Source of the DNA: an uncultured Myxococcales bacterium
GTDB taxonomy: Bacteria; Myxococcota_A; Polyangia; Polyangiales; Polyangiaceae
Reading direction: 5' to 3'
DNA: 36,158 nucleotides
Assembly (NCBI GenBank): GCA_937902985.1
Contig: CALFNG010000388.1
Coordinates: 1 to 36,158, forward strand
Part shown: positions 19,968-27,711 of the stretch, piece after piece
Layout: each line of letters starts with the position of its first letter
Numbering within the stretch: position 1 is the stretch's first letter
Notes under the pieces: model-generated
Told to the model about the DNA's origin: nothing
Databases searched by the model: none
The model's input: the letters and a program-made list of their open reading frames with translations, nothing else
Position numbers and translations under genes: made by a program

Positions 19968-20000
19968 AGCGGGTTTTGCGCGCGCTGGAGCAGGCGATCG

Positions 20001-20535
20001 CTAGGCGCGCGTGGGGACGAGATCGTTCGCGATGATCTCGCCGAACGGGCCGGTGAGGTTTCCCCAGGCTCGAGGCCTCTTCCCTTCGAAGTCGACGGTC
20101 TCGCCCTGCATGACTCTGGGCCAGATTGCGAGGAACTCGTCGGTGAGCTCGTAGCGCTCGTCGTGCGAGAGGAAGAGCCCGTCGCCCTCTGCTTCCACCG
20201 GGTCACCGTCGGTCACGACGTTGATGAGCAGGCGCCCCTCGGAGAGCCTGTCGACGGTGGCCGCCAGACGCGCCGCCGCGGTCGGAGAGGTGATTCCCGG
20301 GCGAATGGCGACGAGGAACTTGAGCCGTCGGGTCAAGGGGACCATCGCCGACGCGACGGCCCACGCGTCCTCACACGACCGACCCGTTGGCAGCAGGCAG
20401 CACGCCGTCGAACCCCAGCTCGTCGGCCGCCGAAGCGATCTGCCTCAAGTATCCGACCGAGACGGGGCGAGCGCCGCGCGCCGTCCCGAGAAAGCGACCG
20501 TCGCCGTGGGTCGGCAGGAACCAGAAGATGTTCAT
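20001..20535 (-). pseudogene. ssuD: Frameshifted and truncated FMNH2-dependent alkanesulfonate monooxygenase
   Basis: SsuD uses FMNH2 and O2 to release sulfite from alkanesulfonates. The first frame starts at the ATG at 20535 with [13 protein letters not shown] and [18 protein letters not shown], a clear SsuD N-terminus, but stops at 20371 after 54 residues. The second frame continues the family match ([19 protein letters not shown], then [19 protein letters not shown] and [17 protein letters not shown]). The break coincides with a CTGC duplication at about 20391-20402; removing four bases restores [11 protein letters not shown]. The second frame loses similarity after about 150 residues in total and ends at 20001, whereas SsuD is about 380 residues long. 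The gene therefore has both a frameshift and a 3' deletion. Confidence 0.85.
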
Positions 20536-20945: not shown

Positions 20946-22436
20946 TCAGTAAACGACCTGGGCGCGCCCGAGGAAGATGTTCTCGGCTTCGCGATGCCCG
21001 GCGGCGAGCTCTGGAGCGCTCTTCGCTCCACCCTGGAACTCGGTGTGGTCGTAGTTCACGACCAGCTTTGCGTTGTCCGACCAGTACCAGTTGACGCCAA
21101 ACGTCTCCTCCGTGGCGCCGCGGACCGACGCCGTGGGCGAGACGTAGTTCGGGAACGCCGAGGGATCGATCGACAGGTGGCCCGCGCGTGCCGCGAGCTC
21201 GACGGCGCCGAAGTCGCCGGCCGCCGGAGCGAAGGGCGTCTTGACGTGAACGAAGTCGTACGACGCGTCGGCGCCGAAGAGGACGAACGTCGCCTGCGCC
21301 TGGTACGCCGCGTTCGAGAGAACCGCGTTGCCCTTGCCGGCTCGCCCCACCTCTTGATTCGAAACGTAGTATTCGCCGAGGAGGCTGAACGGACCGAGCG
21401 CATAGTAGAAATACGCGCCGTAGCGGTTGTGCGGGCCGTTGGCGACCACGGTGTTGGAGTAATCGGGCGTCACTCCCGACGCCGCCGTGATGTACGCGAA
21501 GTCCGTGCTCTGGCCCGGCGTCTTGTATGCCGGCGTCGACGTGGGGGTCGCGAAGGCCGGGTTCGTCGGCGTTCCGTAGACCCGGCCGAAGCTCGTCGCA
21601 CCGCCGACGAAGAGGCGGCCGAGGGTGTCTTTCAACGGCTCGAACGGACGGAAATACGCGCGACCGACGAACTCCTTCTCTCGATCCGAGTCGAGGTCGC
21701 CGCTGCCGTTGTCGGGCACGCCGTTGTAGACGCCGGCGGCGTACCCGAAGACGCGCCCGAAGAGGTCGCCGTACACCATCGCGCCGACGTCGCGGTTGGG
21801 CGTGAGCAGCGTCGGGAGACCGAACTCCACGAACGACAGGTTCGACGTCGGCTGAAGGCGCTCGAGGCCGAACGTGGGGCGGTACTTCCCGAAGCGGAAT
21901 CGCAACCCCTCGCCGATTTGCAGACCGAGGAAGGCGTCCTGGAGCACGGTGGTGCCGCCGCCGAAATCGGGGTTCACCAGGAAGCTGACCCCGTAGGGGA
22001 GCTTGCCTTCGAGGGACGGCTGCGCGCGGCGGATCAAGAAGGTGTCCGTGTTGACTCGCTGCGTCTCGTCGAACCAGAACCGCCCGTCGGCCTGGACGAG
22101 CGCGCGAAAGCGAATCTCGGACTTCTTGTCGGCCGACGTGATCGCGAACCCGCCGGGACCCGCGGCCACGGAGGACGGGTCGCCCGGCCCTCCGCTCGCG
22201 GTCGGCGTCGTACGCGCGCCGAGCGGCAGCGCTCCGTTCGCCGTCGGGCCCGAAGGGGCCGGCACCTCGACCGCCGTAGCCGAAGGCACCGTGCCCGTCG
22301 CGGCCGGCGCAGGCTCGGGCGGGAGCGTATTCGGGGGAAGGGGGTTCTGCTGAGGACTCGCTTCGTCCGCTCGGGCAGCATGGGCGAGACCGCCGAGAAC
22401 GACCAGCGACCAGGCTAACGAAGTGGCTATTTTCAT
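20946..22436 (-). CDS. OprO/OprP-like outer-membrane porin
   Basis: The 496-residue product begins with a signal peptide (MKIATSLAWSLVVLGGLAHA), then a Pro/Ala-rich stretch and a beta-rich region from about residue 100. That region has alternating aromatic strands typical of the Porin_O_P family (RFRALVQADGRFWFDE, FLIRRAQPSLEGKLPYGVSF, LRFRFGKYRPTFGLERLQ) and ends in an aromatic residue (QVVY), as outer-membrane barrels do. Known members pass phosphate or other anions. Its place in the ssu cluster suggests sulfonate or sulfate uptake, which is inference. A 17-nt tandem duplication at the start offers several ATGs (22451 also in frame); I chose the one that begins the signal peptide. Confidence 0.85.
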   Translation of the reverse strand: MKIATSLAWSLVVLGGLAHAARADEASPQQNPLPPNTLPPEPAPAATGTVPSATAVEVPAPSGPTANGALPLGARTTPTASGGPGDPSSVAAGPGGFAITSADKKSEIRFRALVQADGRFWFDETQRVNTDTFLIRRAQPSLEGKLPYGVSFLVNPDFGGGTTVLQDAFLGLQIGEGLRFRFGKYRPTFGLERLQPTSNLSFVEFGLPTLLTPNRDVGAMVYGDLFGRVFGYAAGVYNGVPDNGSGDLDSDREKEFVGRAYFRPFEPLKDTLGRLFVGGATSFGRVYGTPTNPAFATPTSTPAYKTPGQSTDFAYITAASGVTPDYSNTVVANGPHNRYGAYFYYALGPFSLLGEYYVSNQEVGRAGKGNAVLSNAAYQAQATFVLFGADASYDFVHVKTPFAPAAGDFGAVELAARAGHLSIDPSAFPNYVSPTASVRGATEETFGVNWYWSDNAKLVVNYDHTEFQGGAKSAPELAAGHREAENIFLGRAQVVY

Positions 22437-22468
22437 CGCGGGGGCATTCATATCGCGGGGGCACTCAT
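22435..22468. repeat. 17-nt tandem duplication over the porin start
   Basis: ATCGCGGGGGCATTCAT (22435-22451) is followed by ATCGCGGGGGCACTCAT (22452-22468), one mismatch. On the minus strand the outer copy creates a six-codon frame (ATG at 22468) whose TGA overlaps the in-frame ATG at 22451 as ATGA. Confidence 0.85.
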
Positions 22469-22532
22469 TACGTGAGCCATCGCCTCGGGGCAAGCCCTTG
22501 TGGGTGTGTCTGAACGTTCTCGAGTTGGGCAG

Positions 22533-23495
22533 TCAGTTCGAAATGGGAATTACGGCGTCCGCAATCTTCACGGCGTGAGGCAGGAGTCCGAGCGCGAAGA
22601 ACGTGTCGGCGACCCGCTGCTGGTTCGCGACGACATCCGCGTCGACCGCGCGGAGATCGAAGACGTTGCGCCTGAGCGAATCTTCGACCGCCTCGACCTG
22701 CATGCCGATCTTCGGCGCGAGGAGGGTGGCGACGTCGTGCGGGCTCGTGCGGACGTACGCGTCCACGTCGTGGATGGCCCCCTCGATCGCGGCCAGGACG
22801 TCGCCGTGGTGGGACGCATAGTCGCGCGTCGACAGGTAGTAGGGCACATTGCCCGCGAGGCCCGTGGCGTCGCGCAGGACCCGCGCGTCGGTCGAGTGCA
22901 GCGCGCTCGCCAGGAACGGGTCCCAGATGACCCACGCGTCGACCGCGCCGCTCTCGAACGCGGCTCGCGCGTCCGACGGGGACAGGAATTCGAGCGTCAC
23001 TTGATCGTAGGGAACGCTCGCCGAGGCCAGAGCCTGGGCGAGGAAGTAGTGAACGTTCGACCCGCGGTTGAGCGCGATCTTCTTTCCCTTCAAGTCCGCG
23101 ATCGTCTGGAAGGTCGACCCCTTGCGAACGAGGATCACCTCGCCCCGAGGCGAAGGCGGATCGCACGCCACGTAGACGATCGGCGCGTCGCCCGCCTGGG
23201 CGAACACGGGGGGCGCCTCGCCCGCGAGACCGAGGTCGATCTTGCCGGCGTGGAGCGCCTCCATGACCGGCGGACCGGAGGGAAACTCCGACCACTCGAC
23301 CGAGACGTTCGACGCCTTGAGGATCGGCTCGAGCGTTCCGCGCTCTTTGAGGACCAGGAGGACGCCGAACTTCTGGTACCCGATGCGGACGGTCTGCGCC
23401 TTCTTGCAGGCCGTCAGCCCGGCGAGGCACGAGAGCGCGAGCGAGGCGGCGAGCACGCGCTGCAAGGCAGGCGTGAAGCGAAGACGACGGATCAT
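22533..23495 (-). CDS. ssuA: Aliphatic-sulfonate ABC transporter substrate-binding lipoprotein
   Basis: The 320-residue product is a periplasmic binding protein of the SsuA/TauA type. It has a signal peptide with lipobox LTAC (Cys30), so it is probably membrane-tethered. VRIGYQKFGVLLVLKERGTL, then GKIDLGLAGEAPPVFAQAG, GKKIALNRGSNVHYFLAQAL and DAWVIWDPF are hallmarks of SsuA. The frame is intact and the length normal. Its start overlaps the out-of-frame end of the ssuC/ssuB fusion as ATGA. The transporter ATPase gene beside it is deleted, so uptake would need an ATPase from elsewhere. Confidence 0.92.
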   Translation of the reverse strand: MIRRLRFTPALQRVLAASLALSCLAGLTACKKAQTVRIGYQKFGVLLVLKERGTLEPILKASNVSVEWSEFPSGPPVMEALHAGKIDLGLAGEAPPVFAQAGDAPIVYVACDPPSPRGEVILVRKGSTFQTIADLKGKKIALNRGSNVHYFLAQALASASVPYDQVTLEFLSPSDARAAFESGAVDAWVIWDPFLASALHSTDARVLRDATGLAGNVPYYLSTRDYASHHGDVLAAIEGAIHDVDAYVRTSPHDVATLLAPKIGMQVEAVEDSLRRNVFDLRAVDADVVANQQRVADTFFALGLLPHAVKIADAVIPISN

Positions 23496-23502
23496 GGGCG
23501 TT

Positions 23503-23817
23503 CTAGACTCTTCCTGGATTCTCGCGCGCTTCGTCGCGTATCGCCGAGGCTCGGGGGACGTGCTCGGGGACGGGGTCTCCCGCCAGGTCTGGCGCGACCG
23601 GCGCCGTAGCCGGCGGTAGCGACGATGGCGCCGTTCCGAGGATGCGACCCAGGAGCCGCGTCGCCGTGTCGACGAACCGGCTCTCGTGGGGCGCTCGGGG
23701 ACGGGGAATCGCGATGGTCTCGTCGGCGACGACGACCCCTTCGTCGAGCACGACCACGCGGTCGGCCAGCGCGACCGCCTCCTGGATCTCGTGGGTCACG
23801 AGCACCGCCGTGAAGCC
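23503..23817 (-). pseudogene. ssuB: 3' remnant of the sulfonate transporter ATPase gene
   Basis: This frame begins inside the ABC ATPase fold at GFTAVLVTHEIQEAVALADR, the switch-His (H-loop) segment, and continues VVVLDEGVVVADETIAIPRP to the normal C-terminal region of SsuB. Walker A, the ABC signature and Walker B, about two thirds of the protein, are missing. It joins directly to ssuC in a different frame at about 23816-23818. A single deletion of roughly 0.5-0.6 kb that removed the end of ssuC and the front of ssuB explains this. Confidence 0.85.
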
Positions 23818-24541
23818 GCACGTTTGCCTCTGCCCACTTCCCGAGCAGCGCGTAGACCACGATGCTCGCCACGACGATGTCGGTTCGCATGAACTCGCGA
23901 GCTGACATGGCCAGGTAGCCAATGCCGGAATCGGCGCCGATCGTCTCCGCGACGATGAGCGTGAGCCACATGAGCCCGAGGGCGAACCGCAGCCCGACCA
24001 TCACCGAGGGGATGGCGCCGGGCAGGATGACGCGGCGGAACATCTCGAACCGCGAGAGCTCGAATACGCGCGCCATCTCGACGAGTGCCGGGTCGATCGA
24101 ACGGACGCCGTGGAAGGTGTTCACGTAGACCGGGAAGAAGACGCCGAGGGCGACGAGGAAGACCTTGGCGCCTTCACCCAGGCCGAACCAGATGATGACC
24201 ATCGGGATGAGCGCGAGGTGCGGGACGTTTCGCACCATCTGCAGCGTCGTGTCGAACAGGCGTTCGGAAAGCGTCCAGTACCCGTTCGCCACCCCGAGCC
24301 CGAACCCGATCGCGCCGCCGATGGCGAAGCCGGCGAACGCTCGGCCGGCGCTGATCAAGAGGTGCTTCAGGAGCTCGCCGCTGCGAACGAGACTCCACGT
24401 CGCCATGGCCACGCTGATCGGCGTGGGCAACACGTGCGACGAGATCGCTCCCGACGTGGTCGACCACTGCCAGATGGCGACGAGGAGGACCGGCAACAGC
24501 AGCGGCAGCCACTGGCTCCAGCTTCGTCCGTCCGGCCGCAT
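23816..24541 (-). pseudogene. ssuC: Sulfonate ABC transporter permease truncated by deletion
   Basis: The first 240 or so codons encode a normal BPD_transp_1 permease with membrane helices and the EAA-loop region. Segments include LPLLLPVLLVAIWQWSTTSG, MVRNVPHLALIPMVIIWFGL, GLMWLTLIVAETIGADSGIG and VVASIVVYALLGKWAEA. The expected last 15-25 residues are replaced: translation runs out of frame through the ssuB remnant to a TGA at 23492, adding about 107 unrelated residues. The last membrane helix is still present, so the permease core might fold. It starts 172 nt from the divergent AprA-like gene. A sequencing or assembly error is the main alternative to a true deletion. Confidence 0.8.
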
Positions 24542-24576: not shown

Positions 24577-24713
24577 GACAATTGCACAGCTCAGGCAGGC
24601 ACTGGCTCGCTGCGATGATTCCGTCTTGGCGCGCCCTGCGAGATGCCCTTGTGAGGCTACGTTGTTCGTACTAAGAGACGCTCGTCTGCAACGGGATGGT
24701 GCCCCGAGGAGCG

Positions 24714-26480
24714 ATGGAAGAACGGATCATCGAAGCCGACATCGTCGTCGTGGGCGGCGGGAGCGCGGGCTCGACCGCGGCCATCCGCGCGCGGGAGTCG
24801 CTCCCGCGAGGGCGCGTGGTTCTCATCGAGAAGGCCCACGTCAAGCGGAGCGGTGCCATCGCCATCGGCATGGACGGCCTGAACAACGCGGTGATCCCCG
24901 GGCACGCCACGCCGGAGCAGTACGTCAAGGAGATCACGATGGCCAACGACGGCATCGTGAACCAGCGCGCGGTGCTGGCGTACGCCGAGAGCAGCTTCGC
25001 GATGATCCAGGAGCTCGATCGCTGGGGCGTGAAGTTCCAGAAGACCGAGAGCGGCGACTTCGATGTCAAGCAAGTCCACAACAACGGCCGCTACGTCCTC
25101 CCCATGCCCGAGGGCTACGATCTCAAGAAGATCCTCACCCGCAAGATCAGGCGCGAGGGCGTGCAGATCGTCAACCGGCTCGCGGCGACGCGCGTGCTCC
25201 TCGACGGCGACCGCGCCTGCGGGATCATCGGGGTCGACGTTCGCACGGGCGAGATCGGCGTCGTCCTCGCGAGGGCCGTCATTCTATGTTGCGGCGCGTC
25301 GGGGCGGCTCGGTCTGCCGGCGTCGGGATACCTGTACGGCACCTACGAGAATCCCTCGAATGCCGGCGACGGATACTCGATGGCTTACCACGCGGGCGCC
25401 GAATTGACCGGCATCGAGTGCTTTCAGATCAACCCGCTCATCAAGGACTACAACGGGCCCGCGTGCGCGTACGTGACCGGTCCTCTCGGCGGGCACACCG
25501 TGAACGCGCTCGGGAATCGGTTCATACGGAGCGACTACTGGAGCGGGCAGATGATGCTCGAGTTCCATCGCGAGCTCCACTCCGAGAACGGCCCCGTCTA
25601 CTTGAAGCTCACGCACCTGGCCCCGGAGACGATCGAGGAGATCGAGCGCGTCTTGCACAGGACCGAGCGCCCGAGCCGCGGTCGATTCCACCTGGGTCGT
25701 CGCCAGTCGTACGACGAGAACCTCGTCGAGATGCACGTCTCGGAGATCGGGTTGTGCAGCGGTCACAGCGCGTCCGGTGTCTGGGTCAACGAGCGCGGCG
25801 AGACCACGGTGCCCGGCCTCTACGCGGCCGGCGACATGGCGTGCGTTCCGCACAACTATCTCCTCGGGGCGCTCACCTACGGCAAGATCTGCGCTACGAG
25901 CGCGCTCGACTTCATCTCTCGGGCCGGGGCGCCGGCCCTCGACGCGGACCAGGTGGCCGCCGAGCGCGCACGCCTTCTGGCGCCCCTCTCCCGCCCGGAC
26001 GGGATCCCGCATCACCAGTACGAGTACAAGGTCCGACGCCTGGTGAACGACTATCTGCAGCCGCCCAAGACCGCGAATCGCATGAACAAGGGCCTCGAGT
26101 ACTTCTTGCGCGCGAAGGACGAGCTCGACGAGGTCGGCGCCGCCGGCGCGCACGATCTGATGCGCGTCGCAGAGTGCGGCTTCATTCGCGACTGCGCGGA
26201 GATGGCGGCGCGCGCGTCGCTCTATCGCACCGAGAGCCGGTGGGGTCTCTACCATCATCGCCTCGATTTTCCCGAGATGAACGACGACGAGTGGTTCGTG
26301 CACGTGAATCTCAAGAAAGGTCCCGACGGCGCGATGGTCCTCTTCAAGCGGCCCGTGGGCGAATACGTCGTTCCCATGAGCCGCGCGGAGCTCTCGGGTT
26401 ACCGCGACCTTCGAGTCTCGGAGCGCTCGCCACCGCTCGAACCGCCGACCGTTCACGACGGGATGGCCGCCCCCCCATGA
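24714..26480 (+). CDS. AprA-like FAD-dependent reductase (fumarate reductase/APS reductase alpha type)
   Basis: The 588-residue flavoprotein belongs to the succinate dehydrogenase/fumarate reductase superfamily. The FAD-binding VVVGGGSAGSTAAIRARE lies near residue 11. KRSGAIAIGMDGLNNAVIPG at about 46-65 closely resembles the APS reductase alpha subunit (AprA), as does the LDRWGVKFQ region. PGLYAAGDMACVPHNYLLGA near 370 is a second FAD motif, and a helical C-terminal domain follows. No signal peptide: cytosolic. It is translationally coupled (ATGA) to a two-cluster ferredoxin, its probable electron partner. Similar flavoprotein-ferredoxin pairs next to sulfonate transporters are known to me as AsfA/AsfB in aryl-sulfonate desulfurisation; orthology is not proven. 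GAGGA precedes this ATG; an in-frame ATG at 24696 also exists. Confidence 0.85.
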   Translation: MEERIIEADIVVVGGGSAGSTAAIRARESLPRGRVVLIEKAHVKRSGAIAIGMDGLNNAVIPGHATPEQYVKEITMANDGIVNQRAVLAYAESSFAMIQELDRWGVKFQKTESGDFDVKQVHNNGRYVLPMPEGYDLKKILTRKIRREGVQIVNRLAATRVLLDGDRACGIIGVDVRTGEIGVVLARAVILCCGASGRLGLPASGYLYGTYENPSNAGDGYSMAYHAGAELTGIECFQINPLIKDYNGPACAYVTGPLGGHTVNALGNRFIRSDYWSGQMMLEFHRELHSENGPVYLKLTHLAPETIEEIERVLHRTERPSRGRFHLGRRQSYDENLVEMHVSEIGLCSGHSASGVWVNERGETTVPGLYAAGDMACVPHNYLLGALTYGKICATSALDFISRAGAPALDADQVAAERARLLAPLSRPDGIPHHQYEYKVRRLVNDYLQPPKTANRMNKGLEYFLRAKDELDEVGAAGAHDLMRVAECGFIRDCAEMAARASLYRTESRWGLYHHRLDFPEMNDDEWFVHVNLKKGPDGAMVLFKRPVGEYVVPMSRAELSGYRDLRVSERSPPLEPPTVHDGMAAPP

Positions 26481-26767
26481 AGAGCAAGAAGGTCGAGGAT
26501 CGCGAAGGGTTCAAGGCCGCCCAGGCGTTGACGGTCGGCCACGCGCAGACGACGCGCGTCTACGACGTGCCCGTCGTGGTCGATCTCTCCAAGTGCATCA
26601 CGGGCTGCCAGATCTGCATCGATTCGTGCCCCGTCGATTGCCTCGCGGTCAATCCCGAGACCACGAAGGCGCACATGAAATACGACGAGTGTTGGTATTG
26701 CCTCGCGTGCGAGCTCGATTGCCCGAAAGACGCCATCACCGTCAAGATTCCCTTCCTGATCCGCTGA
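26477..26767 (+). CDS. AprB/AsfB-like 2[4Fe-4S] ferredoxin
   Basis: The 96-residue product binds two iron-sulfur clusters. The first Cys set is CITGCQICIDSCP (C-x3-C-x2-C-x3-CP, one residue longer than the usual first gap) and the second is CWYCLACELDCP (standard CxxCxxCxxxCP). The end DAITVKIPFLIR resembles AprB, the iron-sulfur subunit of APS reductase, but the long AprB tail is absent. Residues 1-35 are an extra N-terminal segment. It overlaps the flavoprotein stop by 4 nt and is 14 nt from the HEAT gene, so the three are one operon. Confidence 0.9.
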   Translation: MKSKKVEDREGFKAAQALTVGHAQTTRVYDVPVVVDLSKCITGCQICIDSCPVDCLAVNPETTKAHMKYDECWYCLACELDCPKDAITVKIPFLIR

Positions 26768-26781
26768 GCGAGGAACTCTCG

Positions 26782-27711
26782 ATGGGATCCGCGCGCGACG
26801 ACCTCTTCATGGCACTCGAGAGCCCCGATCCGGCCGGGCGGCAGCTGGCGCTGATCGCGCTGGAAGACGGCGTGGAGCCGGCGCTGTTCGAGCCGCTCGT
26901 CCAGGCCGCGCACGACGTGGATCCGACGGTGCGGCGCCTCGCGGTGGGCATGCTCGAGGAGCTCGGCGATCCCCGGGCCGTCCCGGCCGTGGTCGAGGCG
27001 CTCGCCGACCAAGACCAGGGCGTGCACGAGGCGGCACAATCCGCCATTCGCGAGTTCCGTGGTCCCGAGGCCGCGGCGCACCTGCTCGCCGCGGCCCGCC
27101 ATCCGAGCGCCGCCGTTCGAACGTGGGTCATCGTCGGTCTCCGCGAGCTGAAAGACGCGCGTGCGACCCCCATCTTGTTGCAGGCGCTCGGCGACGAGTC
27201 GGCCGAAGTGCGCCGTGCGGCAGTCGTCACCCTGGCCTATCTCCGGTCGCCCGAGGGCCTCGCGGCGCTGGTTCAACGCCTCGGCGACGAGGACGCGGGC
27301 GTGCGAAGGCTCGCCGTGGCCGCCCTGGGGAGAGCGTGGTCGCCGGACCGGGCAGCAGCCGCCATCGCTCGACTCGAAGACGAAGACTGGCAAGTTCGGG
27401 TCGAGGCTGCGTCGGTGCTCGGCAGCAGCGGCACCGTCGAAGCGACCGCCGCGCTCGTCACGGCGACGCGCGACTCGCACTGGCAGGTCGTCAAGGCCGC
27501 GGCAGCCGCGCTGGGCGCGCTGAAGGGCGCCGACGCGGCGCCTGCCCTTCTTCGGCTCCTCGAGAGCGACGTTCCGGACGTTCGACGCTCCGCCGCGCAG
27601 GCGCTGGGCGAGCTGCGTACGCGCGAGGCGGGTCCGCGGTTACGCGGATTGCTCGCCGACGCCGATATCGAAGTCCGCAAGGCAGCGGAGCGCGCGCTCG
27701 AGAGCCTGTAG
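26782..27711 (+). CDS. HEAT-repeat protein
   Basis: The 309-residue product is made almost wholly of 31-residue HEAT/PBS-lyase-type repeats, about nine of them, with the recurring pattern LGDESAEVRRAAVVTLAYL and LGDEDAGVRRLAVAALGRA. Such solenoids hold or shield partner proteins and, in phycobilin lyases, attach cofactors. No catalytic residues are evident and there is no signal peptide. GAGGAA precedes the ATG. Because it directly follows the flavoprotein and ferredoxin genes, it may be an assembly or scaffold factor for them; that role is inferred from position. Confidence 0.88.
   Translation: MGSARDDLFMALESPDPAGRQLALIALEDGVEPALFEPLVQAAHDVDPTVRRLAVGMLEELGDPRAVPAVVEALADQDQGVHEAAQSAIREFRGPEAAAHLLAAARHPSAAVRTWVIVGLRELKDARATPILLQALGDESAEVRRAAVVTLAYLRSPEGLAALVQRLGDEDAGVRRLAVAALGRAWSPDRAAAAIARLEDEDWQVRVEAASVLGSSGTVEATAALVTATRDSHWQVVKAAAAALGALKGADAAPALLRLLESDVPDVRRSAAQALGELRTREAGPRLRGLLADADIEVRKAAERALESL

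Follow-up and report, generated by a model that had tools for sequence, protein, structure and literature searches.

A probably decaying alkanesulfonate uptake and desulfonation operon on a contig of an uncultured Myxococcales bacterium

The gene row ssuC-ssuB-ssuA-porin-ssuD in the window (the whole stretch of 36,158 nt analysed here, contig C388 of a draft genome with 563 contigs and 96% completeness) is best explained as a former alkanesulfonate uptake and desulfonation operon that is now a decaying set of pseudogenes, a reading to which we assign a probability of roughly 80%. Three distinct lesions have disabled the importer's motor as well as the enzyme that would act on its cargo. What is left of the pathway at this locus is almost certainly non-functional, a case of ordinary gene decay. 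The first-pass annotation of this DNA had already regarded the importer as dead after the loss of its ATPase, unless another ATPase serves it, and this judgement gains weight from the separate damage to ssuD and from a search of the assembly that found no other SsuB. The breakage of ssuD is new here and goes beyond that earlier finding. The features are listed in Table 1.

Table 1. Features of the decaying operon and its divergent neighbour, in window coordinates.
Feature	Position	Strand	Evidence or remark
Open reading frame spanning the junction	23492-24541	-	Presence confirmed; SsuC followed by off-frame tail
ssuC, 5' part	23822..24541	-	NF008470 and PF00528 matches; membrane helices intact to the last one, final ~20 codons missing
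Deletion junction ssuC/ssuB	23812..23822	-	Motif positions and relatives; bases fitting both parents CGGCTT(C)
ssuB remnant, H-loop to stop codon	23503..23820	-	Frame unlike that of ssuC; NF008420 positions 181-247; GC by codon position
ssuA, substrate-binding lipoprotein, full length	22533..23495	-	TIGR01728, 207 bits (cut-off 163.5)
Porin (Porin_O_P), intact, between ssuA and ssuD	20946..22493	-	PF07396
ssuD pseudogene	19992..20535	-	Aligned to the intact ssuD genes on contig C524 and in G021
Flavoprotein gene (AprA/fumarate-reductase-like), divergent, intact, followed by ferredoxin	24696..26480	+	NF006131, 964 bits

The permease frame was claimed earlier to be intact through its last membrane helix, and the profile matches bear this out. 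The SsuC profile NF008470 matches residues 12-243 of the open reading frame (profile positions 13-244 of 263) with 319 bits, a score under the equivalog cut-off of 347, and PF00528 is matched at positions 2-168 of 184, with a complete membrane domain. The SsuB profile NF008420 is covered only at positions 181-247 of 257 and in a different frame, in agreement with the proposed out-of-frame join to the last third of SsuB at the H-loop and with the reported loss of Walker A, signature and Walker B. LLGK, a motif in the last SsuC helix, begins at 23848, and the SsuB motif GFTAVLVTHE at 23817; the SsuC-like reading ends in ...NVRL and the SsuB-like reading begins with GFT. The change of frame is not a chance effect, because the third-position GC content of the ssuC frame is 0.91 up to the junction and falls to 0.52 when this frame is carried on past it, while it stays high (0.83) in the frame of ssuB.

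The two genes, previously described as fused, are therefore joined in the DNA only. Their parts are never in frame together, and a chimeric SsuC-SsuB protein is ruled out: the SsuB part lies in another frame, the tail of 109 residues that follows SsuC is off-frame, and the fusion protein does not exist. Likewise, the ATGA overlap with ssuA is real in the off-frame reading, where it is incidental, and does not hold for ssuB, whose remnant has its own stop codon at 23505-23503, 7 nt before the ssuA start.

Comparison with relatives, which the first-pass annotation had proposed for locating the deletion ends and any short repeats there, revealed a large shortfall in spacing. From the LLGK block to the H-loop block the window has 43 nt, against 641-925 nt in relatives (39 loci with an ssuC-ssuB pair, one G021 place being counted twice; four values above 1100 were set aside because an earlier LLG in SsuC had been matched). 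This supports the deletion of the ATPase core as the best explanation. The loss itself stands as described before; its size, given then as 0.5-0.6 kb, is nearer to 0.6-0.7 kb, and it also includes the end of SsuC. The missing stretch of about 0.6-0.7 kb covers ~20 codons at the end of ssuC, the spacer, and ~184 codons from the start of ssuB, in which Walker A, the Q-loop, the signature and Walker B were encoded. An intact orthologue of the same genus is lacking (a search for the window ssuC in two other genomes of the genus gave no match at E<=1e-60), so that ancestral lengths were taken from other genera and the deletion ends are bounded rather than seen.

At the junction the two parent genes could share at most ~7 bases (CGGCTTC); a longer direct repeat was looked for at the site and not found, and the junction contains no Ns. 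Such very short shared sequence fits a deletion between short matches and not the collapse of a repeat by the assembler, which is ruled out in the absence of any repeat of useful length at this place. We therefore infer a short-match route, in which a deletion of ~0.6-0.7 kb, probably between copies of CGGCTT, would have taken the SsuC tail together with the catalytic core of SsuB.

The damage to ssuD is of two kinds. Near 20399 the four bases CTGC are duplicated in tandem, so that the frame shifts after residue 46; a separate internal loss of ~200 codons (~0.6 kb) is joined near 20061-20080. The single open frame of about 370 codons expected for SsuD is consequently absent at this locus. Here a second deletion and a 4-bp duplication by slippage would have broken the gene.

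The two losses, both of ~0.6 kb and 3.7 kb apart in one operon, resemble each other in a way that a local fault of assembly or scaffolding could produce, and the organism could then be intact for ssuCB and ssuD, with sequence dropped at two places in a poorly covered stretch. The fragmented state of the draft and the conserved appearance of the retained parts are compatible with such a fault. We nevertheless consider it unlikely, given that the junction repeats amount to a few bases and Ns are lacking, that the tandem duplication in ssuD is a third and different kind of lesion, and that the missing cores occur on no other contig, although unbinned short pieces would be invisible to this comparison. 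Neighbouring genes and domains elsewhere are also whole: domain coverage is full for other genes in the window, including those for DnaK, a carbonic anhydrase and a DUF4331 protein, and throughout the genome the sigma-54 activator domains that were listed are complete, as are most of the ABC-ATPase domains. The damage is thus local, and general assembly damage is not supported. Taken together, the lesions were probably present in the living organism and not made during assembly.

The retained genes show few signs of degradation. No stop codons interrupt ssuA, ssuC or the ssuB remnant, and ssuC is retained through the last helix and the coupling loop with its conserved sites mostly kept. Relaxed selection, sought as odd residues at conserved sites of ssuC, ssuA and the ssuB remnant, was not apparent as a clear excess, and was dropped as a reading of the conserved residues of ssuC and ssuA. 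Since the conserved sites of ssuA and ssuC show no visible degradation, the decay is probably recent; this pattern would alternatively be expected if the retained parts were still in use.

Continued use would require that the truncated SsuC and SsuA still work, that the off-frame tail is tolerated and that another ATPase energises the importer, for example that on contig C256. Some type I importers are known to share an ATPase (PMC7658222), but no feature of the window suggests such an arrangement. The MsmK/MsmX systems resemble the window in that a permease and a binding protein occur without a complete local ATPase. Those systems are sugar importers, however, whereas in the window a truncated ssuB lies in place, which indicates a loss and not a system built without an ATPase. 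Of a functional SsuABC importer the window holds SsuA and the SsuC membrane domain, and it lacks an SsuB that carries the Walker A, signature and Walker B motifs. The search of the genome for a second ssuB, likewise proposed earlier, found none at the SsuB level when the assembly was searched with the SsuB profile. SsuB-related ATPases do exist on contigs C53 (198 bits) and C256 (182 bits), the best other matches, compared with 271 bits for the intact SsuB of the relative G021, and both are ruled out as a second SsuB by score and other affiliations.

The ATPase on C53 belongs to a system with a binding protein and a permease of its own, amid genes of the urea-carboxylase type. That on C256 likewise comes with a permease, and is flanked by a nitrite/sulfite reductase gene and a siroheme-synthesis gene; the neighbouring genes were named by reading their translations. 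Neither of these two best candidates is therefore an intact ATPase without a permease of its own. The downstream ssuD is also broken. Even though SsuA and SsuC up to the coupling loop are retained and conserved, we regard a service by another ATPase as very improbable. The same low expectation applies to its wider implication, namely that a distantly related ATPase from another locus energising SsuC and SsuA would extend ATPase sharing beyond the sugar-importer class. The literature searched yielded no published experiment on whether Tau and Ssu ATPases can be exchanged. The C256 locus (L044, G000:C256:65000-74000) contains SaoA/Tau-like ATPase and permease genes together with an XRE-cupin regulator.

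Gene decay remains the preferred reading. SsuA, SsuC and what is left of SsuD are clearly homologous to their counterparts in the SsuABC-SsuD alkanesulfonate uptake and monooxygenase operon of the E. coli type, and the remnant of SsuB corresponds to the C-terminal part of PRK11247. The window differs from that type in an SsuB without catalytic core and an SsuD that lacks ~200 codons and carries a frameshift. With bacterial pseudogenes formed by internal deletion it shares the pattern of joined homologous flanks, a missing middle, a broken frame and several lesions in one operon; it differs from these in nothing of kind, except that the intact parent of the window genes is unavailable.

The nearest relatives of the window SsuC are Alphaproteobacteria, with up to 65% identity, compared with mostly 53-55% to members of its own family (G021, G170 and others), and a tree places it outside the clade of its own family with weak support. 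On these similarities, the ssuC operon may have been acquired sideways and may now be in the course of being lost. The genome has an intact SsuD on contig C524 and further sulfur genes at other places, which may be why the loss is tolerated. The case illustrates, in a modest way, how an operon for sulfur scavenging is lost step by step while the large genome around it retains other organosulfur genes. It also corrects the annotation: a pipeline could call an SsuC of 349 residues here and miss that import and desulfonation are both broken at the locus.

Two further observations concern the surroundings of ssu genes. On contig C524 (L029:10957-13158, G000) and in G022 (L136:3674-5542), one frame combines a sigma-54 AAA+ activator, a helix-turn-helix of the Fis type and a C-terminal SsuA-like substrate-binding domain that has no signal peptide; it adjoins ssuD and is 60% identical across genera. 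The product appears to be a one-component sensor of sulfonates in the cytoplasm. Divergent from ssuC, the window carries AprA-like flavoprotein, ferredoxin and HEAT-repeat frames (24696-27711), and the same three frames precede a more distant ABC importer of the sulfonate type in G021 and G022.
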